Of a DNA stretch of 64,000 nucleotides, positions 1,649 to 57,789 are shown in pieces; within the stretch, counting starts at the first letter, position 1, and each line of letters opens with the position of its first letter. The notes under the pieces are model-generated. The model did not search any database. It was not told where the DNA came from and was given only the letters and a program-made list of their open reading frames with translations. The stretch comes from Rhododendron vialii. Its lineage: Eukaryota; Streptophyta; Magnoliopsida; Ericales; Ericaceae. The DNA is taken from positions 268,001-332,000 of the forward strand of contig NC_080569.1 of NCBI RefSeq assembly GCF_030253575.1, given 5' to 3'. Both the position numbers and the translations under genes were made by a program.

Positions 1649-4600
1649 AATTAAGACATAAATAAGCAGAGATACATACGGATATACCTTTACAAAGGTA
1701 TATGCAAATGTTTGTCACAAATCTTCCAATCCCCGGAAAAATCACTCTGTTAGATCAAACACGCTTGTGTGTTTACCATCATGCAATACAATTTAAAGGG
1801 TGTATACACTGTTGGGTGTTTCCCGGCACAGGGCTTAACAGCGAAGTGAGATCCAGGCGACTGGTGAGGCTCACTGAGTGTTGTGGTTCGAGGTTTGCCG
1901 GGCTCCGTGATTATTCCGTCCTCTGTGTCTCTGGTGGCTGCTGTTGTTTCCTTTTCGGTTCCTATCTGGAACTGACCAGTGTATTTGGAGGGTTCTCCTG
2001 CTGGTTCTGGACGTAGTGATGTTTGCTAGTTGGTGGCTGTGGAGGAGGCATGGCAGCTTTGGTCTCAGCGTCCGGTGGATCGTCGGATGGCAGGTGGTTT
2101 GGGCACGAGGCGGCGGTGGCTGGAATGTGGCTAGGGTTTGGGGTTTTAGGTCTTTTAGGGTTGGGCTAGACCCAATAGGTGTGTGGGCTTGGCCCAATTG
2201 GTGTTACCTTGGTTGGCAGCTTGCCAATCTCAGTTCTCTCTCTTTTTGGTCTTGGATTGCCATAGGATTGTTCTTGGGCTTTGTTTAGGGATGTGATGCC
2301 GTTAATCCTTGTTCCTTTTAGTCTTCGTAATGTTTATTCAAGGATTAATAAAAATTTCTTTGCCTTTCAAAAAAAAAAAATTCAATTTAAAGGGAAAAGG
2401 GGGAGAGAGAAAAAAACTCGTCTTAGGCCCTCTGAATGTATTGCAGCTTTGTATGTGTGATGTACGATGAAAAAATAATAAAACACACAAAGAATATGAT
2501 GACAGCAGATGGCAGAACGAGTAATTGCACTCCACCTGTTATTGCTTGTCATTTAACACTAAATATATTCAAGTGAAAAGGTGCTTTAACAATGTCCCAA
2601 TGCCCCTTTCAACTAGCAAACAGAAACAAATGCATGCACACACTCGGACAAACAATGCATAGAATATGATTTTTACCTTTGCAACTGCTTTGGGAGGGTA
2701 ATCTCCCCCCAGTCTTGCATCAACACACTGCCTGACTTTGTCTTCACTAAGTTTTGGTGTAGCCTATAATGAATTCAAAATCAACATAATCATCTTTGGC
2801 ATAAAGGCAAAGAAAATCTCTTTTGAAATAGGAAAATAATCACAGAAACGGAGAAAAGCAGCAAAGTATAGTACCCATGTCACAAGACTCTGTTGTCCAC
2901 GTGGTAACGTATGATCAACTGGTTTGCGCCCAGTCAGGAGCTCAAGCAGGACAACGCCAAAGCTATAGACATCACTCTTTGCATTCAGCTGTCCAGTCAT
3001 TGCATATCTTGAAAATAACAAGGCATGCATTAACAAATCAAATATTTACACACATAGCCTTTAGAATTAGTAGTTTCCATTTATTGCCAAGGTAACAGGA
3101 GAAGAGAAAACGAAAACTTGAATACAATGCCCATACTCACCATCAGGGCCTAGTTGTGAAGTTAAAAGTTTTTAAGTATCACTAGTCTTAAATTTTTAAG
3201 TTCATGGCAGAAACTCTCTCTTACAGCCTTACATAGCCAGCTTGAAAATAGTTACTCTAGCATATGTCTGGCATTGTGAGGGCAAGCCTCAAGCAAAAAA
3301 ATTAGGGGTGTTCAAGAAAACCGTCCGAACCGTAAAACTGGTTCCGATCTGGACCGAACCATCCTATTTGGTCCGGTTCTGCAGTTCTACGGTCAAGTTA
3401 TGGTTCCAAAAAAATAAGAACCGTTAATTTTGGTTCGGTTACTGGTTCTCAATTAATGAACCGTGGTTAGAACCGAATCGGACCGTTTAAAACTAAGATA
3501 AATATATATATACATATGTGTGTATAATTAAATATGTATTTGAATTTGGTAGGTTAATGTTTTCTTTGCTAAACTTAATTTATTTAGAGATGAAATTTCA
3601 TTTATTAGGAAAGCTTTTATTTTCTTCCTTCCTTTCCTATTCCAGCAGATTATCTTCCTATTTTTTTAATTTTATGAGTTCATATTTTGTAAATAAGTGT
3701 TTGGATGCTTATTGGATAGAACCGGAACCGAACCAAAACCAAACCGGTCTTGTGGTTTGGTTCTGGTTAGGTTTCATGCATATATTGGTTAGGTTTTGGT
3801 TCCCAATTTTCTAGAACCGTTTAAAATGGTCCGGTTACTGATTTTCTAGAGAACCGGACCGTGTACACCCCTAAAAAAATCATATGAATGTGTATGCACA
3901 ACGAGCTTACTCGGGAGCATGGTAACCAAAAGTTCCAAGAACACGAGTTGAATGAAGACGTGCTGCCATGTCAGGTGCTTGATTTGATAAATCAAAATCA
4001 GCAATCTTAGCGACATCATCATCAAAGAGTAGAACATTGCTTGATTTGATGTCCCGATGGATGATGTGAGGTTCTGCCTTCTCATGCAAATATTCAAGCC
4101 CTTTAGCAGCCCCTACAGCAATTTTTACACGTTGTGACCATGACAGAACAGGACCAGGTTGTGCTCCTTTGACTCCTTTCCTTCCTGGATGGGAAAAGTA
4201 AAACCTGAAAGGTTACTCATTGGAAAACAATAAAGACCATATTATCCCGATTAAGAAAACTAATGAAACATTTATACTTCTGCATTAGGGTTCTGAACCA
4301 TCAGTAGCTAGTGAGCTGCTGACTAATGAACAAAAAAACTTAGCCTCAACCTAAGATGAGCTGCTATCAAAGCATTCCACTCGATTATTCTTGATCCATT
4401 CCACACAAAAGAAAACAGGCTAGGAACAATATATGGTAAATCGTAGCTTACGCAGTTTACTTTTTGCCAAAGTGCACATTAAGGCTACTCAACGAGGAGG
4501 AACAAAAGCATTTTAAAAAAAACTAGGAGGAACAAAAGCATTTAAAAAAAAAAACTAGGAGGAACAAATGCACCACAAGGGAAGTAATGTTATACAACTG

Positions 4601-6769
4601 ATATGCGATACACGTACCATACGCCTTTCCTTCTGGATGGGGAAAAGTAAAAACTGAAAGGTTACTCATTGACAAATGATAAAAACTACAATTTCCACAT
4701 CAAGAAAATAAAAGCAAACATTTGCACTTCTGCACCAGTGGTCTGAACCATCAGTGCCTTGTGAGATAGTCTACACCAGGGCTTGCTGCTGACTAATGAA
4801 AGAAAAAACTTAGCCTCGACCTAAGATGAGGTGCTTGTGAATTTAGTATTTAGCTTTTATCGTCATTTATCTATCATGTTAAGGGTAGTCTAGTATTTCG
4901 GCTTTATTAGGGTTTGTTTAATGTTGTTAGGGTTAACATATATTTTCTCTCTATCTCTTTCCCTTGTATGAAAATCTTTTGCAATTCAATTACTTTTTGC
5001 TTCTCTCTCTATGATCTATCTTTGTATCAGAGCCCAAATTGCGAGAGGTCTTGGGTTTAAGTCTCTCTGTTTGCATTATGTTTCTCCCTTTTGCATCCTA
5101 TCGAAGTATGTAGGGATGTTTACACCTCCACGACTCCACGTGCAAGACGGGGTTGCACGTGAAGCTATAACTTGATATACATTGGTGGGTTCATTTCCTA
5201 ACAAATTAAGCTTTTTGGACAATTGGTAACTCAGCGTGGTATCTTCCACGCCTCTTTATTGTGGTAATACAAATGTCATTCTGATTGTACACACTCAAAT
5301 GTTCCATCAGCGTATGAAGCATATCAAGATTAATTGTCATCTCATTTGCCACCATTTTCAATCAGGCACTATTGACTTGCCATTTGTTCCATCCTCACTA
5401 TAGTTGGCTGATTTCTTCACCAAGACTTTATCGTCATTTATCTTTCACGTTAAGGGTAGTCTAGTATTTTCGGCTTAGGGTTTGTTTTAATGTTGTTAGG
5501 GTTAGAATATATATCTTCATTTTTTGCAATAAAATCACATTTTGCTTCTCTCTATAATCTATCAATGCTATCAAAACATTCAAAAAAGAAAATAGGCAAA
5601 AACGATATAAGATAAATTGTAGCTCGCGCGGTTTACTTTTTGCCAAGGTATAAATACCAAGGTTACTCAACTAGGAGGAACAAATGCACCATAAGGTAAT
5701 ATCATATACAACTGATATGTAATACACGTACCATGAAGAATGTCATGAAGAGATCCATTAGATGCAAACTCGTAAGCAAGCACACGTTGATTACCATCAA
5801 CACAATACCCGAGCAATTCAACAAAATTTTCATGTTTCAGCCTTGATACCATAGAAACCTTGTAAGAGAAGAGAAAGATGATGATTGTTTCAGAATCATA
5901 ACATATGATCAATCACATGGCAAATACAAGAATTTTTTCATCTGAACCTGGGCTAAAAATTCCTCATCTGGTTGCTTGCTGGAGTCCAATTTTTTGATTG
6001 CAGCATGCCTCCCATTTGTTAGAACTCCATAGTATACTCTTCCATATGAGCCTTCTCCAATCAAGGAATTAGTCCCAAAGTTATCTGTAACTTCCTTTAT
6101 TTCATCAACTGAAATAGCTGGGACATCAATGGGTTGGACTTTCACAGTTTGAGCACCCTTAGATGTTGCTTCAGTCATCTGATAACCTCCATTGTTTCCT
6201 GGATCATGAACTGCCACTTAGTATGTATTTGCAGGACTTGTAGACGGAAACAGAAAGCATCGAAAAAGGAAACAGAACATCTAAAAAACAAAACAAAAAC
6301 AGAAGTAATGGCCAACAAAAAGACAAGCACGGAAAAAAAGTGCAAGAAGAAGAATACCAGCAAAGAAGAGGGGGAGAAAAAGAGGAAAGAAGAGCATTCA
6401 CTTTTGCAAAGTCAAACATGGAATAAATAACAATTTTGATGAATTGAAAAAAGGTTTCAAGTTTCAATGTATTTTTACCTCCAGAAACAAACGTTGCTAC
6501 AAACCAGTCCAAAAAACTGTAAGTACCTTAAAACACAAGCTTCAACTAGTACAGTAATCCATTCAAGTTGGTGAGGCAACCTCACAACTAATCTATTTCG
6601 AGGCTAGAAACATCGAGCCATTTAGGTGCTTTGTTATTCACATATGCAAGTCTAAATATATGGAAACCACCCACGTCCGATTACCAGCTGAATTTTTCAC
6701 CGTGTATGCACCTCCTCCATCAGTAGGTCTATTGAAATCATCATCTTCACAGCAGCCAAAACAACCCAT
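1373..6769 (-). CDS. PTI1: PTI1-like serine/threonine protein kinase
   Basis: Receptor-like cytoplasmic kinase of the Pto-interacting 1 family, which acts downstream of receptor kinases and OXI1/AGC kinases in oxidative-stress and immune signalling. Exons in coding order: 6685-6769, 5948-6198, 5732-5858, 3911-4184, 2875-3007, 2677-2763, 1373-1504. They total 1089 nt (362 aa) and all junctions are GT-AG with matching phase. The N-terminus MGCFGCC suggests myristoylation or palmitoylation and membrane attachment. Visible kinase features are the glycine loop GEGSYG (76-81), invariant Lys97, HRD (197-199) and KIADFD (214-219). The family naturally has DFD in place of DFG, so this is not damage. 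The C-terminus is complete. An AG acceptor just upstream (exon begins at 6796) implies a leader intron, but I could not fix the 5' leader exon. Introns 3, 4 and 6 carry insertions. The family call is very secure; the orthologue number is not. Confidence 0.95.
1599..1646. repeat. (TC)n microsatellite in PTI1 intron 6
   Basis: About 24 uninterrupted TC units lie about 95 bp inside the last intron of the kinase gene. On the transcribed strand this is a GA tract. Confidence 0.95.
1801..2382 (+). mobile_element. Retroposed non-LTR element with poly-A tail, in PTI1 intron 6
   Basis: A 582-bp insertion ends in a TAATAAAA-type signal near 2346 and an A-tract (2369-2380). It is flanked by a perfect 12-bp target duplication, CAATTTAAAGGG, at 1789-1800 and 2383-2394. 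This is the signature of LINE-machinery retroposition. The body is G/T-rich and has open frames without recognisable domains. It may be the 3' end of a LINE or a retroposed transcript. It lies antisense to the host gene inside its last intron. Confidence 0.8.
3303..3872. mobile_element. Non-autonomous hAT element in PTI1 intron 4
   Basis: A 570-bp insertion with ends TAGGGGTGT and ACACCCCT is flanked by an identical 8-bp duplication, AAAAAAAT (3295-3302 and 3873-3880). Subterminal DNA is crowded with GGTTC/GAACC motifs in both orientations, as expected of hAT transposase-binding regions. No transposase frame is present. Confidence 0.85.
4618..4632 (-). other. Potential 15-nt cryptic microexon at the intron duplication junction
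   Basis: Read on the minus strand, a pyrimidine-rich tract ending CATCCAG is followed by AAGGAAAGGCGTATG and then GTACGTG. This reproduces the authentic intron acceptor and donor back to back. The exon before ends in phase 1 and the scrap is 15 nt, so inclusion would insert five residues (E-G-K-A-Y) between His154 and the Gly-Arg-Lys-Gly of the kinase without shifting frame. Use of this exon is purely inferred. Confidence 0.45.
4836..5564 (+). mobile_element. Internally deleted Ty1-copia retrotransposon relic
   Basis: The left LTR is about 4836-5020. It is followed by TTTGTATCAGAGC, close to the usual initiator-Met tRNA primer site of plant copia elements. A 125-bp coding scrap follows at 5302-5426, reading the RNase H end: [13 protein letters not shown], then [12 protein letters not shown], a stop, LADFFTKT. 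A partial right LTR runs about 5426-5564. A 5-bp flanking duplication has one mismatch (GTGCT 4831-4835; ATGCT 5565-5569). Gag, protease, integrase and most of reverse transcriptase are gone. It sits in copy B of the duplicated PTI1 intron, and the empty site is preserved in copy A near 4361. Confidence 0.85.
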
Positions 6770-6796
6770 GATTCTTTCCCCCAAGGTAGCTCCTTC

Positions 6797-9490
6797 CTGT
6801 TTGAAAATCGTGTTGGCATCAGTAAGAAGAAGAAACCTTCAGCATACATGCATGACATATATGTAGGTAGCGGGCGAGCGCACACTTCCACTTATATATG
6901 AGAAAATAATGCGAAAAGGGAATGAATAGGACCGTGGAGGAGGAAGTGGAGCATGAACAAGATCTTTCAAAACATAAGTACATCAATTTTTTATTTTCTT
7001 TATATCAAATAAGTACATCAAGTTGACAACACTAACAATTCCACAAGAATAGGAAACGATCATCAACACCTTGATTCACAAAAGTTGATTCCACTCTCTG
7101 CAAGTTTTTCAAACCAAGATCTTTCAGAATGTACAATACATTCCAATGTTTTTGCTTATTCCCTCATGATTCTCATTATACAAGCATTCAATATGTCAGC
7201 AGAAACTTGATTCCCAGAAAGATAGCGCCTTCAAACCAACAAATTTACTCATAAAAAAGAGGTAATCAGTACAAAATCAAACCGCTGCCCCAACTTTAGA
7301 ACCTACAATCCCCTAGACAAAGAAAACACTAGTTCCACTCTCCATGATGCCAAAGTGAAGAGTCAGTGAAGGAAGAAAATGTTTCCTGAAGCTCAATCTT
7401 TTCACATGGCATTTGCAGAACGATCACTCTTTTGGGATGCTATTACCTTGAAAGTTGATATTGAGCACTAGCAAAAATTTAAAAATGCACCAGTACACGG
7501 GTACCATAACCATTATAATATAAGTTCCCAACATGTGTCAAGAAAATGTTTAAGAAAAAATCCACTTTTTCTTTCTATTTTTTGCAGTTTGTTCTCCACT
7601 GCATGTGTTCTGTAAAACTTGGTTAAAGAAATAACAGTGACGGTCGAAAGGAGTTGAAATTGGTAGACTTGAAATACAAAAATTGGTAGACTTGAATTGA
7701 TTGTCGTGAATCCCCTTTCTCCAATTTCATATCAAAACTCAAAAGACTTACTAGACGAACATATGTTACTCCTAAAGACTATAAAGCAGCACATGAGAAA
7801 AGGCCATGAGCCCATAGCTAGTGCACTAGAAGGTAATGATGGTGAGGCCAGCCGAAGTTAAGGCACACGATGATGGGATGGTAGTTAAAAGAGTTGAAGT
7901 TTTGTAGAGGTAGGTGGGCGAAGATTTGGAATTGGTCGGAGATGGAAATGAAAGGGGCTAGAGGGTTGAGCATGTGAATTATGTGGGAAGGGAGGGCTCG
8001 TATGGAGTGATGAATATGGATGGGTCAAGTCGGGACTCGGGAGAGTTATGCACCTGAGGTGCACCCTACCCTTTGCCTCTCAGAGGTTTAGAAATGAAGC
8101 CTAAAGAGCTCATACTCCACTCCCTCGCTCACTTTTGGACTGTTTTACCTCTCTACCCCCCGTCTCGGCTAGGCACACAACAGTTGCCTCAGGTCCTTTG
8201 AGGTCTCCTGCCAAACATCGAAATGAGATATATGTGGGGCTTTTGCGTGAAGGAAATTTTTGGTGGGCCTGTAATAAGCCTAGTGCTTAACTGGGTAGAG
8301 TGACATACTTGCGGACTACTCTCTTCTATCGTGACATCACATCACTATCCCCTTTCCTACAACATAGGTAAGTTGTATAAAATAACCAAAGATGGTCCTA
8401 AATCACAATACCCTGGCCATGTGCGGCTAAGTCCAAGGGATGGAGTGTTGAATACTTGGATGTGCCTGGAGCCCCCTATGAGCAGCATGATTTTCAGTAA
8501 GGCATGACAATCGCGAATTCGCAGGAATGGGGATATGGCTCCTTCTTCCCCAGTCCCACTTTGTGCAACTGATATCCCACTTGACCACTGTCAAGAACTA
8601 GATATCATATACATTAAGAGTTAACATTTAGTCCAACGTTACAACTCACGAGAACTCGGAACCCATAACCTCAGTGACTTGAAAGGACAAGCCTGGTCCC
8701 CACGTCAGGTTCAGGGGGCTAAGACATGACATGAAGGGGGGTGGGGGGGTGTTAAGTAGCCACCTTACCCAACCAAAGGTCAGTCTCTACTCATCACGAA
8801 CTCACACTATATCCACAACAATCAACATAGAAAGCAATAGTTATAAAAAGAGTTATTCCATACGATAAACGATAGAACTGATAACGAAAGGCAAAAAAAC
8901 AAAGAGAGGAACTTTCAAAGCAACCAACCATAAAATATTAGGAAACTCAAAAACAGCACCTATGCAGTAACAATGAGTTAAATATGATAACAACGCATTA
9001 AACAGCTATGACAACTCGGCCGATTGCATTGCACAGTATTAGTCTCGGACTTTTCCATGTATGGAAAAAATAGTGTCTTCGACTCAGTCACGGATCTAGA
9101 TCAAGTAAAATTCAAATGCAAACATGTCATCCCAGATGATAAAGTTTTTGAAAGGATGTGGGGAGTCAAAGAGTGTTAAGCCCAAGCTGATAAGCTCAAT
9201 GACTCTCGAGGAAACAAGCAACAGTTGCGGGAGATCCGATAGAGAGAGAAATCGACAGGGAACTTATACTGGTATCGCATTCTCATCAACAAAAATTGAG
9301 CAAAGAAAATAAAAACAAACAAATCAACATGAAGTTGTTTCTCGAGCGATCAAATTACAAGTCAAGCCAAAAAATGTAATAATGAGAAAGTCGTAGGTGA
9401 TGAAATTAGATCAAAGACGTAATCGGAAAATAGCAATAGATCCAATAAAAACTAGGAGTACTTGATAGGCAGTGGTGTTTTAGTCCGTGT
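6797..9490. other. PTI1 upstream/leader-intron region, no gene seen
   Basis: Most of this is probably the leader intron or promoter side of the kinase gene, because an acceptor lies at 6797-6799 (minus strand). The stretch around 8640-8720 resembles a decayed tRNA-type B box (GGGTTCCGAGTTC on the minus strand) and could be a SINE remnant. The G-rich run at 8734-8751 is low-complexity. No open frame is convincing. Confidence 0.4.
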
Positions 9491-38700: not shown

Positions 38701-41700
38701 AGTAGACGACTGTTTCCTAATAGTACGTGAAGTTGATAGAAAAGTCTTAATGTAGCAAAACCCAGATAAAAGCATAATGAAGAAAATACAAGAATTATTT
38801 CAAATGAGTGCTGATCACTGATCAGAGATACTCAGATCATGAACCAAAAACACTTTCTCAAATCGATAACTCTAAAGGGGAGGATGCAATATTCAAACAT
38901 GGCCCTATATAATAGAAAGACATTTCAGAGAGGTGATGCTTAAACTGAATAGAAGCTTCCAGCAGAGTAAAACTGCAGATCAAATTTCATCCTTCATGCT
39001 CCAAAGTCCATATAATAAAATGTAAAGAGATTGTACCATGAAATTTTAACTTTAAATTGACAGTGCTCGACTTCTTGGGAGTGCAAACTGACTTGAAACT
39101 TGAAAGTATCCATGATGAGAAGAGTGAATAGATACCAACCTAAATTGGTTCAGCACTATGTTGGAATCACATAAGTGGGCTCAGGCGCCTTTAAAGGTGA
39201 GTTTTTTTGTTTGGTGTGCGGCTCAGGGCAAGATTCTTACCATTGATAATTTGATCCGAAGGTGGAGAATCATTGTCAATTGGTGTTGTATGTGCAAAAT
39301 GGATGCGGAGTCGGTTGATCATCTCCTCATTCATAGTCCGGTGGCCTTGGAGCTTTGGACTATGGTACTTTCTTGGTTTACTATGCGATGGGTCATGTCG
39401 AGGAGTGTGATGGAACTCTTAATCGTTTGGAGAGGTGCAAAAGTTGGTAAGAGGCAGAAGCAAGTTTGGCTTTTGATCCCTCTTTGTTTAATGCGGATCA
39501 TTTGGTAGGAAAGAAATTTGAGATGCTTTGAAGGGGTCAAAAAGCCTTCATTTAGAATCAAAAGTTTTCTGGTGAATAGTTTGTTTAGTTGGGACAACAT
39601 AGAATGTGATCCTTCTCTTGACCAATTTTTAGATTGGTTTGAGCTTTTCGTTTCTCTTGGAAGTGTATAGGGCCTTTTTGACTCGTGGCCAATTTGTATA
39701 CGGGTGGCATTCCCTTAATGCCTTCTTTTAATATAATTATTTACTTATAAAAAAAAAGTTTTCTGAGTTAAGGTAGCAACACAAATGACAACAATCCATT
39801 TTTGGGGGTTTCAGCCCATTTAGACCTTTTCTGGTTTCGCAATGCGTGTGGGCTCCTTTGGTCACGGCTATGCAAGGTTGCCATGTGCTGGTAGCTCCCT
39901 CCTAACTTTTTTCATTAGCAAAACTTTCTTTGTAAAACCTATTAAGGGAAATGATAATGCCAAAACCGTATTTGTTGGTGCCAAAACTCTAGTGCACAAA
40001 AGGCTTGTACCATTTGCAATGTACAAGACTTTTATGCACTGGAGTTTTGGCACCAACAAAAACGGTTTTGGCATTATCACTACCCTAAAAGAAAGTTAAA
40101 CATAAAAAATCTAGAGCACACCACAGGCTCACTACAAGTTAAAGTATGATAGAACTACAGCCCACCAACAAATGGTCTAACTGAGCTGTGGGAGCATTTC
40201 TGCTACGAAGGTCATGATCCATGGTATTAGCAGTTCAATTGCAATATTTCTTACTGTAAACAACTTTCAACTTTGAGGTCTAGCAGTTTTAAGTTATGGA
40301 TCGCCAAGATACTTATCCACAACTGCATGCCTACAACTTACATGTGCTCTCTTATCATCACAAGCTGGTTGCCATCCAAGCTCCAAACACGACAGGTACA
40401 ATCCTCGCCAGCGGTGACTATTAACTGAGTGAAGTCCCATTAAGAAAAAAGTTAGTTCCTAAACTACTGAAAACTATGCACCTAAATTTAAGGAGTAAAT
40501 ACACAAATTTCATCCACATTATGAGATGATTAACAGCTTCACGATTGGAAAATCACAAGAAATATGAGAACTCCATAAGTTAAACAACAATAACCATCAA
40601 AAGTATACACACCAAAATGCTGAAAGTGACTGGCAGAATGTCGGGCAATAATTACTTCTCAAAGTTATTTCTTGAACCATATAACCCAGTGATAGATCAG
40701 AATATCAGCCATGAGGAATGGGTACAAATTACTCAGCTTTTAACAGAATCAGAGGAAATTTTCAGTTGGGGTAAGCCTAGCTCGGTATTGCAAACCAACG
40801 TCTTCCCCATTTCTGACAGTCACATACCATTATTGTCAATATTTCAACAATATTTGGTAGAAACCAGACCCAACCATTAGCCATCGAAAAGCACCAACCA
40901 TGCAAATCATCAAAGTATATTATTAGCAAGATATTTATGCAAGTCCATCAAGAAAGCAGCACAAACAGGAAATAATTCATAGCATGTAAAACTATAGAAG
41001 ATCTCCTTTTAGATCAAGCAATCCATTGAATTGAGTAGGATTGCATGTGTGACATTGTTACCCTAGCAGGAAGATCAATGAACCCGACAGATGAACTTGC
41101 TCAGGATACCCTTTTTTAGCTTCTAGGGTCTATTTCTTAGTTCAAGGTCCCTCCTACTACTCACTAACTGAAATGCCTTCCTTTTAGATCAAGCAATCCA
41201 TTGAATTGAGTAGGATTGCATGTGTGACATTGTTACCCTAGCAGGAAGATCAATGAACCCGACAGATGAACTTGCTCAGGATACCCTTTTTTAGCTTCTA
41301 GGGTCTATTTCTTCGTTCAAGGTCCCTCCTACTACTCACTAACTGAAAGGCCTAAGGATTTCAATATGAGCAATTTGAGAACTATTCAACTTGAGATGCA
41401 AGTACAGATGATTTTTTTACTTTTCCAGGAAGAAGAAGAAAGCGGACTTAAGCTATAAATCTAATAATTACAGGTCCATTGGGCCTTGTAATTCTTAATA
41501 AAACATACATAGAACTTTGAATACTTTTTCTTTGAGGAGAAAACTAACTATTGAAAACTATCCAAGTAAACACCGGAAATTATGTTATATATCCATAGGT
41601 AAATGGTGCCCTTTCAGAAGGAAGGAGCAAGACAACTAATAATGAGAACATATTCCGAGTTAGAGAAGTGTCCGGAATTTTCTTCATAACAAATTAATAA

Positions 41701-44700: not shown

Positions 44701-44839
44701 TGAGGGAGAGAGAGAATAAGTTACCGGCGAGGAGGTAAGGAAGAGAAGAGAGAGGAGGGGGGAGGTGGAGAAAACAGAGGGCAGAGATTTCGCCGAGGTA
44801 GGGCCCGCTGCGTAGTCGACAGTCGCTTGGTTCCGACAT
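29706..44839 (-). CDS. WDR6-like: WD40-repeat protein of the WDR6/Trm734 type
   Basis: The human and yeast relatives (WDR6, Trm734/Rtt10) partner the tRNA 2'-O-methyltransferase FTSJ1/Trm7 for position 34. A like role here is inferred. Exons in coding order: 44725-44839, 44314-44600, 44072-44189, 43698-43780, 41992-42212, 41756-41885, 40342-40424, 37737-37949, 36954-37316, 36366-36537, 35216-35407, 34285-34491, 34108-34200, 33343-33551, 32200-32802, 31817-31902, 30381-31115, 29891-30044, 29706-29769. Total 4128 nt, 1375 aa; every phase closes. Typical blades are visible: LDGHEGSIFRIAWYSDGSKLISVSDDR, here split as LDGHEGSIFRIAW and YSDGSKLISVSDDR; then FGHNARVWDCCIFDD and VTAGEDCTCRVW. The protein ends GRGMQMVEFSTS. 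Start MSEPSDCRLRSG was preferred to the in-frame ATG at 44908, which would add 23 residues including an alanine run. Introns hold a LINE, MITEs and tandem duplications. Confidence 0.93.
31495..31545 (-). mobile_element. Short SINE-like tail fragment in WDR6 intron 16
   Basis: On the minus strand it reads AAGCCTTATGTCC, TAGTCAATTGGGGTCGGCTA, CATGAATTC. This GCCTTAT...GGGGTCGGCTACATGAAT phrase is common in plant genomes, as I recall, at the 3' part of SINE-like repeats. A partner in opposite orientation lies at 35639-35672. Confidence 0.45.
34664..35097. mobile_element. Stowaway MITE in WDR6 intron 11
   Basis: A 434-bp element has ends CTCCCTCCGTCCCATTTC and, in reverse complement, CTCCCTCTGTACCATTTTC, with TA on each side (34662-34663 and 35098-35099). 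Related sequence recurs at 12407-13062, 46959-47199 and 58003-58246. Confidence 0.85.
35620..35672 (+). mobile_element. Short SINE-like tail fragment in WDR6 intron 10
   Basis: An AACCAAACC run is followed by GAGCCTTATGTCCCAATCAC and TTGGGGTCGGCCA. It is the same phrase as 31495-31545 in opposite orientation. Confidence 0.45.
39130..39760 (+). mobile_element. 5'-truncated LINE with zf-RVT domain in WDR6 intron 7
   Basis: The plus strand reads KWAQAPLKVSFFVWCAAQGK, then CCMCKMDAESVDHLLIHSPV. This is the zinc-binding reverse-transcriptase C-terminal region (zf-RVT) of plant L1-type LINEs. A short non-coding tail ends with GCCTTCTTTTAATATAATTA and an A-tract near 39751-39759. One in-frame stop separates the conserved part from a further 50 codons. 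It is antisense to WDR6. I could not identify a target duplication. Confidence 0.8.
39945..40086. mobile_element. Near-perfect palindromic MITE in WDR6 intron 7
   Basis: A 142-bp sequence folds almost completely on itself. The left arm reads TGATAATGCCAAAACCG, then TTGTTGGTGCCAAAACTC; the right arm is the complement, with a loop around 40015. Ends AGGG and CCCT are inverted. It is non-coding and transcribed within the host pre-mRNA. Confidence 0.85.
41005..41354. repeat. Recent 175-bp tandem duplication in WDR6 intron 6
   Basis: Units 41005-41179 and 41180-41354 both begin CCTTTTAGATCAAGCAATCC. I see only about two to three differences, for example CTTAGTTC against CTTCGTTC. Identity this high implies a recent event. 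Confidence 0.9.
43231..43690. repeat. Older ~230-bp tandem duplication in WDR6 intron 4
   Basis: Units of about 230 bp start at 43231 and 43461 (both AGGGGCAGAACAA) and share TTAAGCAGACCAATAA.CATG. Divergence is clear. The second copy runs up to the splice donor of exon 4 (43697). Confidence 0.75.
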
Positions 44840-44966
44840 TAGCCAAGCTGCTGCTGCTGCTGCTGTTGAAAAGCAGAAGTCTCCCCGCCCGGCCGCCCTG
44901 AACTGCAACTACTACTGTGTTGTCTGCATAAACCCCTCCTGGGGCCTGCCCTGGGGTTTTCTTTCC

Positions 44967-46177
44967 GGCTTATTTGTACGGATGGTCCCTAAAGTATTTT
45001 CAAAATGTCAATTTGGTCCTCAATATACAAATCGTGTCTATTACATCCTCAACGTTTCCAATGTGTGTTTAAATGATCCCTAGAACTAACTCCATCCAAA
45101 TTAGCCGTTAAAGATAAGGGTATTTGAGGAACTTCACTAAAATATTTTCAATTTTTTTATCTGCAAACAAATGAGCAATTCTATTCACACCCCTCCTCTC
45201 TCCAGCTCACCACCCTCACTCCGAACCCATCTCCATATCCCCCAAATCACCAATGACCAAACCCACATTTATAACCCATCTCCAATCACTGATTCAACTC
45301 GGAGAAGAAGCATCCAAAATCATTCTCTCTGTTTGCTCTCACAAGTAACCCATGGCCACAACCATCAACCCCACCATCGTACGGCGTCAAATCAAAAGCG
45401 AATGAATCGACTGAATAAGCAAAGATCAGACCTTGAGCTATTAGAGGAAGAGTGGGCTTGGAACCAGTAGTTGAACTTCAACCCTCAATCAAGCAAGCTT
45501 ACGGCGTTGTTTTCGCAGTCGATGACGATCTTCCCCTTGCCACTAAAGCAGCAAGTGACGTTGTCGGGGATCGAGTATTTTCCGGCAAATTTCTCCTCGA
45601 AGAACTTGAATTTCCTCCACTGGTATATCCCTACTGTATCAATCAAGGTATTCAAATCGTGCAAGTGTAAACAAAAATAGAAGTCATCCTCTTCTTTCTA
45701 GTAGAATAAAAGTTCAGCTTAATGTAATTACCAAATAGCAAAATAAAATAAAAATTGTGAAAGGTAAAATGAAACTGGTTGTAGGAAAAGACAAAATAAG
45801 ATAGAATAGTTGGATGGAAAAACAGTGGTGTGTTGTTAAATTAATCTCCCATAGCCGCATTATGGTGGTGAATAACAAGGAATTAGGCGTCAACCCTAAG
45901 AAAGCCAACACTGCTCACAAAGTCGCAGTAGAGAAACTGAGAAAGAGATAGGGCCTAGGGTTTTGAGGATGAAGATGAAATTTTGTGGGAGTGATGGTTG
46001 TTTAAAGAGGAAGTTCCACAAATACCCCTGTTTTAAACGGCTAATTTGGACAAAGTTAGCTCCGAGGACTATTTAAATGCACATTGCAAATGTTGGGATG
46101 CAATAGACACGATTTGTATATTGAGGACCAAATTGACATTTCAAAAATACTTTGAAGACTATCTGTACAAATAAGCC
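44967..46177. mobile_element. Pack-MULE (Mutator-like element carrying a gene fragment)
   Basis: A 1211-bp element has long terminal inverted repeats of about 170 bp (44967-45140 and 46004-46177), starting GGCTTATTTGTAC at both ends. It is flanked by a 10-bp duplication with one mismatch (TTTTCTTTCC 44957-44966; TTTTGTTTCC 46178-46187). Long TIRs with 9-10-bp duplications define MULEs. No transposase is present. The interior contains a piece of the plant VPS11 gene (45443-45628), and on the minus strand near 45930-45970 a leader-like AAAACCCTAGGCCC. Its left end is 128 bp upstream of the WDR6 start codon. Confidence 0.9.
45443..45628 (-). pseudogene. VPS11: VPS11 first-exon fragment captured in a MULE
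   Basis: The minus strand reads I-YQWRKFKFFEEKFAGK, then YSIPDNVTCCFSGKGKIVID, then NNAVSLLD-stop-GLKF and FQAHSSS. From memory this follows the N-terminus of plant VPS11 (YQWRKFEFFEEK, CCSSGRGKVVI, VSFLDRG, FQAHSSS), a core subunit of the HOPS/CORVET vacuolar tethering complexes. The initiator Met is ATA here, and the conserved Arg of LDRG is TGA (45485-45487), as from a CGA-to-TGA change. It encodes about 62 residues and is non-functional as VPS11. The rest of VPS11 is not in the window. Confidence 0.85.
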
Positions 46178-46615
46178 TTTTGTTTCCCTATATATAAGTA
46201 TATGTATACTCCTGCTTATTACGGGCTGGATGCTGCCTGGATTTGGACCTTTACAAAGAAGTCCACTTGATCTTGGGCTTTCAAGCTTCGAATCTTTGAT
46301 GTGGCACCAACACAAGAGAAAATCTTCTTTACAAGTTGCTATAAACAAGTATTTACAATACTCAATTTTTACAATACTCAATTATGACCGTTCAAAAGTG
46401 TTTTGAATGCACTTTTGAACGGTCAAGGTATTAATGAAACTTTTTTGGGAAAGAATTAATTGTAACTGATCATAATTGAAAACGAATCTCAACCTTTAAT
46501 TGCACGAATAGAAGACTGAGATTTGTTTTGTTTAAGACTTATGGATTTGTTTTGTTTAAGACTTATGTACTTGTATCATACTCCTACGTCCTACCATTTT
46601 TGTTTAATTTTGTAA

Positions 46616-56332: not shown

Positions 56333-57789
56333 GAGTTTTTTATCGATTTATTCGTTTCCAAATAACTATTTGTCAAAATATACATTTTTTTAAAGTATTT
56401 TTAAAAATAGTTCAAAACGCATATTCAATGTGCATCATGCACATTCAATGTGCACTATCCGCGCTGGCATATGCCAGCCGGCCAGCTGGATATCCAGCGT
56501 GTATCACGCATATCCAATGTGCATGATGCATATTCCATATGCGTGATCAATCGTACGTGCAGTTGCAACAAGTTTCAACAATGGAAGATGCAGTGCTCGC
56601 ATGTGCTTACGACGTGCATGTTCATGAAAACTTCCCCTTTCGAATACTTCGGCGATGTTTGGTCACTCAAATCAATTATACAAATGTATGCCTCTCAACC
56701 ATTTAGGCCCCCGCGTGACAAGGCGTATTGGCTTGAAATCATTGGGCCAACCATCATTCCAGATCGAGAACGTATCCGGGGGAGAGGGCGACCCCAAATC
56801 ACACGGTTCAGGAACGAGATGGATTGGATTGAGCACCAACCATCAAAGAGACAGTCATGCACATTGTGTGGACAAGAAGGACATAATCGAAGAAAGTGTT
56901 CCGGAAGCAGGGCAGAAGCGTCAAGTTCAGGAACAAATTTGTAATCGGTAGTAGTAAAATATTTACATATGTATGGAGCTATGTTGTCTTTGTACTTGTT
57001 TAAATTTCAAATCTTTGTTTTTAAATTCGTAATTTGTAGTTTGTAACTTTCGAATATGTTTGTAATTTATGATTGTGGTCACATTACAGTTTACTTGTCT
57101 CATTGTTGCCAACAATTATTTGTTTTCAATGCTTATTAAAAATAATACTAATTGTTCCAAAAAATACATAACGGGCATATGCAAAATAGTTATTATTTGT
57201 AATTAACACCTGCCACTTGGCCATGTTGTCACATTAATCTAAAAAAAAACAATTACATGGTTAACGCCTTTTGTATATGCATTCTCGAATAACCATATCA
57301 TCAACTAAGGGGGGTGCAAGTGCAACGTATCCCTGTTATATTCCATCGGTCGTTCAATAACTCCGTTTGCTGTGAGAACTCTCCCCTCTTTGGGAGCAAA
57401 AAAAACGCATGTCCCATTCATCAACATTGACACCTCTACGAAAACTCTTTCCATTTTATTTTATTTTTTCTGAATGAAATCGTCAATCCATTTCAATACT
57501 TCAATGACGGTTGATCCATTCATACATATAATGCATCACTCACATTCAATATGCATGACGCATATTGGATATGCATCACGCATATGGAATATGCATAATG
57601 CACATTGAATATGCGTGATACACGCTGAATATCCAGCTGGCCGGCTGACATATGCCAGCGCGGATAATGCACATCCAATGTGCATGATGCACATTGAATG
57701 TGCGTTTCGAACTATTTTTAAAAATAATTTAAAAAAACGTATATTTTGACAAATAATTACGTGAAAAGGCATAAATCGACAAAAAACTC
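56333..57789 (+). mobile_element. Mutator-like element with transposase remnant
   Basis: A 1457-bp element has a perfect 9-bp duplication AACGCTGGT (56324-56332, 57790-57798) and terminal inverted repeats of 200 bp or more, starting GAGTTTTTT.TCGATTTAT. The subterminal parts are made of reiterated short motifs such as TGCATCATGCACATTCAATG in both orientations. Only the C-terminal part of a MURA-type transposase remains, so it is a non-autonomous deletion derivative. It sits directly upstream of the ZNF598-like promoter. Confidence 0.92.
56450..56944 (+). pseudogene. C-terminal remnant of a MuDR-type transposase
   Basis: The 164-residue open frame begins inside the terminal repeat. From about residue 54 it reads the SWIM zinc finger CSCNKFQQWKMQCSH of plant MULE transposases, then a basic linker (RERIRGRGRP) and a CCHC knuckle, CTLCGQEGHNRRKC. 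The catalytic DDE region is missing. Whether the frame is translated is unknown. Confidence 0.85.

Follow-up and report, generated by a model that had tools for sequence, protein, structure and literature searches.

A 64,000-nucleotide stretch of the Rhododendron vialii genome (C13:268001-332000, hereafter the window) carries a defective Pack-MULE at positions 44967-46177, next to a WDR6/TRM734-like gene (Table 1). The terminal inverted repeats (TIRs), put at 170 bp in an earlier sequence-only reading of this DNA, are present and measure 169 bp by blastn with 142 identical positions, the long TIRs of a Pack-MULE. A search of the window with a 20-mer from the TIR, allowing up to three mismatches, hit nothing but the two ends of the element (shuffle mean, 0.02), and a TIR 20-mer gave no match among the viral contigs. 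The flanking target site duplication (TSD) of 10 bp with a single mismatch, already described in that reading, falls within the 9- to 11-bp range of Pack-MULEs. The same reading had seen no transposase, and Pfam agrees: the VPS11 reading of the element matched no transposase family and four further element ORFs matched no family at all, so that the ORFs scanned do not encode the transposase of an autonomous MULE. The VPS11 reading also gave weak matches below the cut-offs to Pol_BBD and DUF3553 (E of at least 0.07), and Rfam reported nothing at gathering scores over the window.

Table 1. Features of the element and its flanks (positions in the window)
Feature	Position	Strand	Basis
First coding exon, WDR6/TRM734-like gene	44725..44839	-	ORF; ATG 44839-44837 and donor site by eye
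Left TSD TTTTCTTTCC	44957..44966	.	9/10 vs right copy
Left TIR	44967..45135	+	84% to right TIR, E 5e-50; many matches across own genome
Left internal stretch	45136..45383	.	~45164-45223 weakly like two other family elements; rest (45224-45383), no source besides C3 copy
VPS11 fragment	45384..45629	-	210/276 with gaps to C6:35045907-35046182; 207/246 ungapped columns; PF23341 and PF23266
40-bp spacer separating both captured pieces	45630..45669	.	Genome search, no source found
SKI2 helicase intron piece	45670..45854	+ (SKI2 sense)	170/185 to C13:8191396-8191580
Right internal stretch	45855..45938	.	Genome search, no source besides C3 copy
Right subterminal family sequence, includes AAACCCTAGGCCC segment	45939..46009	.	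Sibling-element matches begin at element position 973-990
Right TIR	46010..46177	-	blastn vs left TIR
Right TSD TTTTGTTTCC	46178..46187	.	9/10 vs left copy
Possible TATA box TATATATA of WDR6-like gene	46189..46196	-	Sequence reading only; AT-rich flank, chance possible

We searched the whole genome (532.6 Mb, 13 contigs) with the cargo (45150-45990) and obtained seven places: the element itself, a second copy on contig C3, a VPS11 gene on C6, an intron of a SKI2 gene on C13, and three short subterminal pieces of sibling elements. The C6 gene, the one VPS11 gene found in the genome, matches the fragment at the DNA level with an E value of 2.7e-52; its frame reads MYQWRKFEFFEEKFAGKCSIPEDV... from the ATG, and its downstream exons match VPS11 Pfam models with E values down to 2.9e-83. 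The alignment identifies this gene as the donor of the fragment. Counted on the C6 gene, the captured span runs from 1 nt ahead of the ATG through the complete 222-nt exon 1 and its donor site AAG/GTCTGATC, ending 53 nt into intron 1. Because intron 1 sequence is found in the cargo, the template was DNA and not mRNA. Over ungapped columns the window copy is 84% identical to the donor and the C3 copy matches it in 215 of 246.

The sequence-only reading had proposed a decayed first exon of VPS11 within a Pack-MULE, and both the donor match and the protein profiles bear this out, with the similarity staying between the TIRs; the parental locus that it suggested seeking is the one on C6, where the exon 1 boundary and the start of intron 1 could be compared. 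Read with an X at the stop codon, the fragment matches PF23341 (E 1.5e-7, 31.3 bits) and PF23266 (E 1.1e-5, 25.2 bits), in both cases below the curated Pfam cut-offs of 40 and 27 bits, as fragments may. Truncated before the stop it still matches PF23341 (E 5.2e-4), and the reversed sequence used as a control has no Pfam match. A search of the genome with the PF23341 profile returned six matches, four from one C6 gene and two from the element copies (27.8 and 27.0 bits against the cut-off of 40; E 4.0e-4 and 6.8e-4), and the control genomes gave a single match below the cut-off, in Thermotoga maritima.

The minus-strand stretch of 62 codons recognized earlier was right as to gene and strand but too short, since the capture covers the entire exon 1 and reaches 53 nt into intron 1. 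The fragment carries deletions of 12 bp and 13 bp relative to the donor, the second of which shifts the frame, and the final "HSSS", formerly counted as VPS11 residues, is read in that shifted frame. The loss of the start codon was correctly seen (ATA replaces ATG at 45628-45626), as was the in-frame TGA following LLD. This stop is CGG in the donor and CGA in the C3 copy, and from CGA it takes one C>T at a CpG, in line with the CpG-type change suggested earlier. With the start lost, a stop and a frameshift, a protein from the fragment appears unlikely. Searches of solved structures with the fragment gave only chance-level matches to ribosomal proteins.

The earlier reading overlooked a second donor. 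A 185-bp piece, in the opposite orientation to the VPS11 piece, corresponds at 92% identity to an intron of a SKI2 helicase gene on C13. The ORF upstream of this place matches human SKI2 (E 2.5e-30), the preceding exon completes an MTR4 beta-barrel domain (E 2.8e-10), and about 70 bp past the match comes another coding exon, the next in the gene, recognized by eye. The two donor matches lie on separate contigs, and the element is a chimera of two unrelated housekeeping genes. A TIR search in 9 kb around VPS11 and 8 kb around SKI2 found none at E ≤0.01; at E ≤1 it returned a single 20-bp piece in the VPS11 stretch (18/20, E 0.032), which we take for chance. The element interior is thus host-gene sequence whose parental copies are not flanked by TIRs, as in Pack-MULEs. 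The VPS11 piece is 84% and the SKI2 piece 92% identical to its donor, and the two may have been captured in one step or separately.

A leader-like AAACCCTAGG segment had also been reported inside the element. The genome search places it in the subterminal sequence that the element shares with its siblings, making it family sequence and not a captured leader. We likewise rejected a reading of the stretch from AAACCCTAGG to the VPS11 start as one VPS11 leader with a 5'-UTR intron, given that the AT-rich part falls in the SKI2 intron and the AAACCCTAGG part in the element.

The second full-length copy, on C3, is identical to the window copy in 1143 of 1199 ungapped columns (95%) and is flanked by its own exact 9-bp TSD. 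The presence of two copies with different TSDs indicates that the element moved at least once as a unit carrying both pieces. In the C3 copy the ATG and the arginine codon are intact and a separate TGA occurs at codon 16, so the ATG-to-ATA change and the stop following LLD are found in the window copy alone. Both copies share the 12-bp and 13-bp deletions, which therefore precede their parting, provided that the C6 gene represents the original state.

Taking the donor as the outgroup to polarize changes, we counted 27 shared, 12 window-private and 4 C3-private differences in the VPS11 piece, the shared class including changes in the donor lineage, and 10, 5 and 1, respectively, in the SKI2 piece. 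Private changes sum to 17 in the window copy versus 5 in the C3 copy (binomial P = 0.017; P = 0.077 for the VPS11 piece alone). The window copy thus seems to have decayed faster than the C3 copy, on modest numbers. C>T and G>A account for 11 of its 12 private changes in the VPS11 piece, and 6 of these 11 fall at CpG.

Queried with the whole element, the genome gave at least 100 matches, with 40 scored of 189 candidates; each TIR matches both query ends, so the elements are fewer than the matches. We retrieved 34 stretches (20 and then 14) which comprise the two donor loci, the C3 copy and additional sites with TIRs. The TSD test, which allowed a slide of one base at each end, covered 17 elements, the window element among them, leaving aside L026 and L028, whose ends are cut or partial, and the second batch of 14. 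An exact TSD of 9 to 11 bp flanks seven of the 17 (L009, L016, L017, L018, L019, L021 and L023), four without any slide, and one with a single mismatch in ten flanks another four (the window element, L012, L015 and L027). The remaining six (L013, L014, L020, L022, L024 and L025), several of which have extrapolated ends, show no clear TSD. L017 on C3 and L018 on C2, with interiors 99% identical and different exact TSDs, are siblings that form a recently moved pair.

An element on C4 (L034), whose right TIR shares 78% identity with that of the window element, encodes the domain of a MULE transposase (PF10551, E 2.4e-25), which ties the TIR family to the MULE superfamily. Its left TIR is recognized over the inner 86 bp only, and its reading frames are split in two. 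Beside the transposase ORF, on the minus strand at 4449-5630 of that stretch, lies an ORF that includes a stretch resembling an OTU protease by eye and has no Pfam match at E 0.001. The 7-kb element L012 was considered as an autonomous copy and rejected, its long ORFs resembling by eye those of retroelements or pararetroviruses and not a MULE transposase; these ORFs (2071-6847) lie between two TIRs of the same family 7 kb apart.

We consider it very probable (about 95%) that the locus is a non-autonomous Mutator-like element, a Pack-MULE, that captured the VPS11 and SKI2 pieces at the DNA level and then moved and decayed. The element would have taken up VPS11 exon 1 with the start of intron 1 as DNA, and part of the SKI2 intron in the opposite direction between the same TIRs, probably through template copying by gap filling or fork switching. 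A MULE transposase supplied in trans may then have moved it at least once with both pieces aboard, giving rise to the C13 and C3 copies; the C13 copy would have inserted upstream of the WDR6/TRM734-like gene, decayed mainly by C>T and G>A changes, and at present probably has no protein or silencing function. The mismatch in the window TSD and the 6 of 17 family elements with no clear TSD are evidence against this explanation.

A distance of 127 bp separates the element from the inferred downstream ATG of the neighboring gene, which is likely WDR6: the N-terminal half, pieced together from exons, aligns to yeast TRM734 (6jp6) in a single stretch over residues 34-234 (E 1.2e-9), although many other WD40 proteins outscore TRM734 on short repeats. 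The VPS11 fragment, previously called antisense, is so only relative to the plus strand and runs in the sense direction relative to this gene. A zf-RVT domain on the plus strand at 39158-39508 (E 1.4e-13) looks like a LINE remnant that is, by position, intronic to the WDR6-like gene, and a 175-bp unit is present twice at 41004-41353 in the region of the same gene, with 98% matches. At 56450-56944 a plus-strand ORF weakly matches a CCHC zinc knuckle (E 0.0099) and a SWIM domain (E 0.065), neither reaching its Pfam cut-off, a combination resembling the C-terminal portion of a MULE transposase; a search with the present TIRs found no long match elsewhere in the window.

The position of the element next to the WDR6/TRM734-like gene raises the question of whether it now serves that gene as promoter or 5' leader, with transcripts starting in it or crossing it, which we regard as unlikely. 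The element is placed between the gene and the TATA-like TATATATA, which ends one base short of the right TSD, and the VPS11 fragment is codirectional with the gene; if TATATATA is a TATA box, the insertion would have separated it from the leader. According to PMC7337890, Pack-MULEs of maize and rice show their highest occupancy immediately ahead of transcription starts, and PMC8277862 refers to Pack-MULEs that contribute to host-gene 5' UTRs. However, the TATA-like site lies within AT-rich DNA, the 17 ATGs found on the same strand as the gene, from the element's right end down to the start codon of the gene, would burden an unspliced read-through leader, and the known insertion bias near transcription starts does not require a function. 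Somewhat more doubtful still is the specific version in which the VPS11-SKI2 Pack-MULE became both promoter and 5' leader, perhaps through the captured VPS11 splice donor, with the VPS11 piece transcribed as leader of an unrelated gene. VPS11 is a vacuole-tethering protein, SKI2 an RNA-decay helicase and the WDR6/TRM734-like protein acts in tRNA modification. If the promoter reading were true, a transposon built from two genes would have taken over the expression of a third.

Far less probable is the earlier suggestion that transcripts of the element yield small RNAs silencing VPS11. siRNA effects of gene-capturing elements including Pack-MULEs are described for maize in a review (PMC13317346), and the C3 copy shares a perfect run of 46 nt with VPS11. 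The longest perfect run of the window copy is 19 nt, which is below siRNA length, and VPS11 silencing by this copy is thus unlikely; moreover, with one VPS11 gene found, selection would probably act against strong silencing. The SKI2 piece shares a perfect run of 42 nt with its donor, and small RNAs against the SKI2 intron would be possible on match length, an intron probably being a poor target for them. A segmental duplication or processed VPS11 copy in place of a transposon is scarcely conceivable, as we found no point in its favor and the cargo contains intron sequence, comes from two donors on different contigs, and is bounded by TIRs and TSDs within which donor similarity ends.

We rank the neutral reading, a moved and decaying Pack-MULE, as the best, and any present effect would most plausibly concern the WDR6-like gene's promoter. 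The element resembles the Pack-MULEs of rice and other plants in its MULE TIRs, 9- to 11-bp TSD, lack of a detected transposase, exon and intron DNA, and site just upstream of a gene. MULE-derived genes of Oryza come mainly from GC-rich sequence, as stated in PMC4858842; the VPS11 piece (donor 57% GC) conforms to this rule, whereas the SKI2 piece, from an AT-rich intron (donor 33% GC), departs from it. Kaonashi (KIU) elements, MULEs carrying ULP1, likewise hold a host gene domain, but they are non-TIR elements with a conserved ULP1 domain, as described in PMC13317346, in contrast to the long TIRs and decayed fragment found here. Pack-CACTA elements and capturing Helitrons are alike in carrying host fragments within a DNA transposon. 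CACTA elements have TSDs of 3 bp and Helitrons none, whereas the window element has a 10-bp TSD of the 9- to 11-bp type and MULE-type TIRs.

Our literature search found no Pack-MULE report with VPS11 or with this cargo of VPS11 exon 1 and SKI2 intron, and none joining Pack-MULEs and Rhododendron. Two-donor and multi-copy Pack-MULEs have already been reported (PMC4858842 and PMC8277862), and the element is an ordinary Pack-MULE whose chimeric and multi-copy features are not new and which adds no new mechanism. It is unusually well resolved in that a single genome supplies the two donor loci, the sister copy and a relative encoding a transposase domain, so that the order of events can be read as capture, shared deletions, transposition and private decay.
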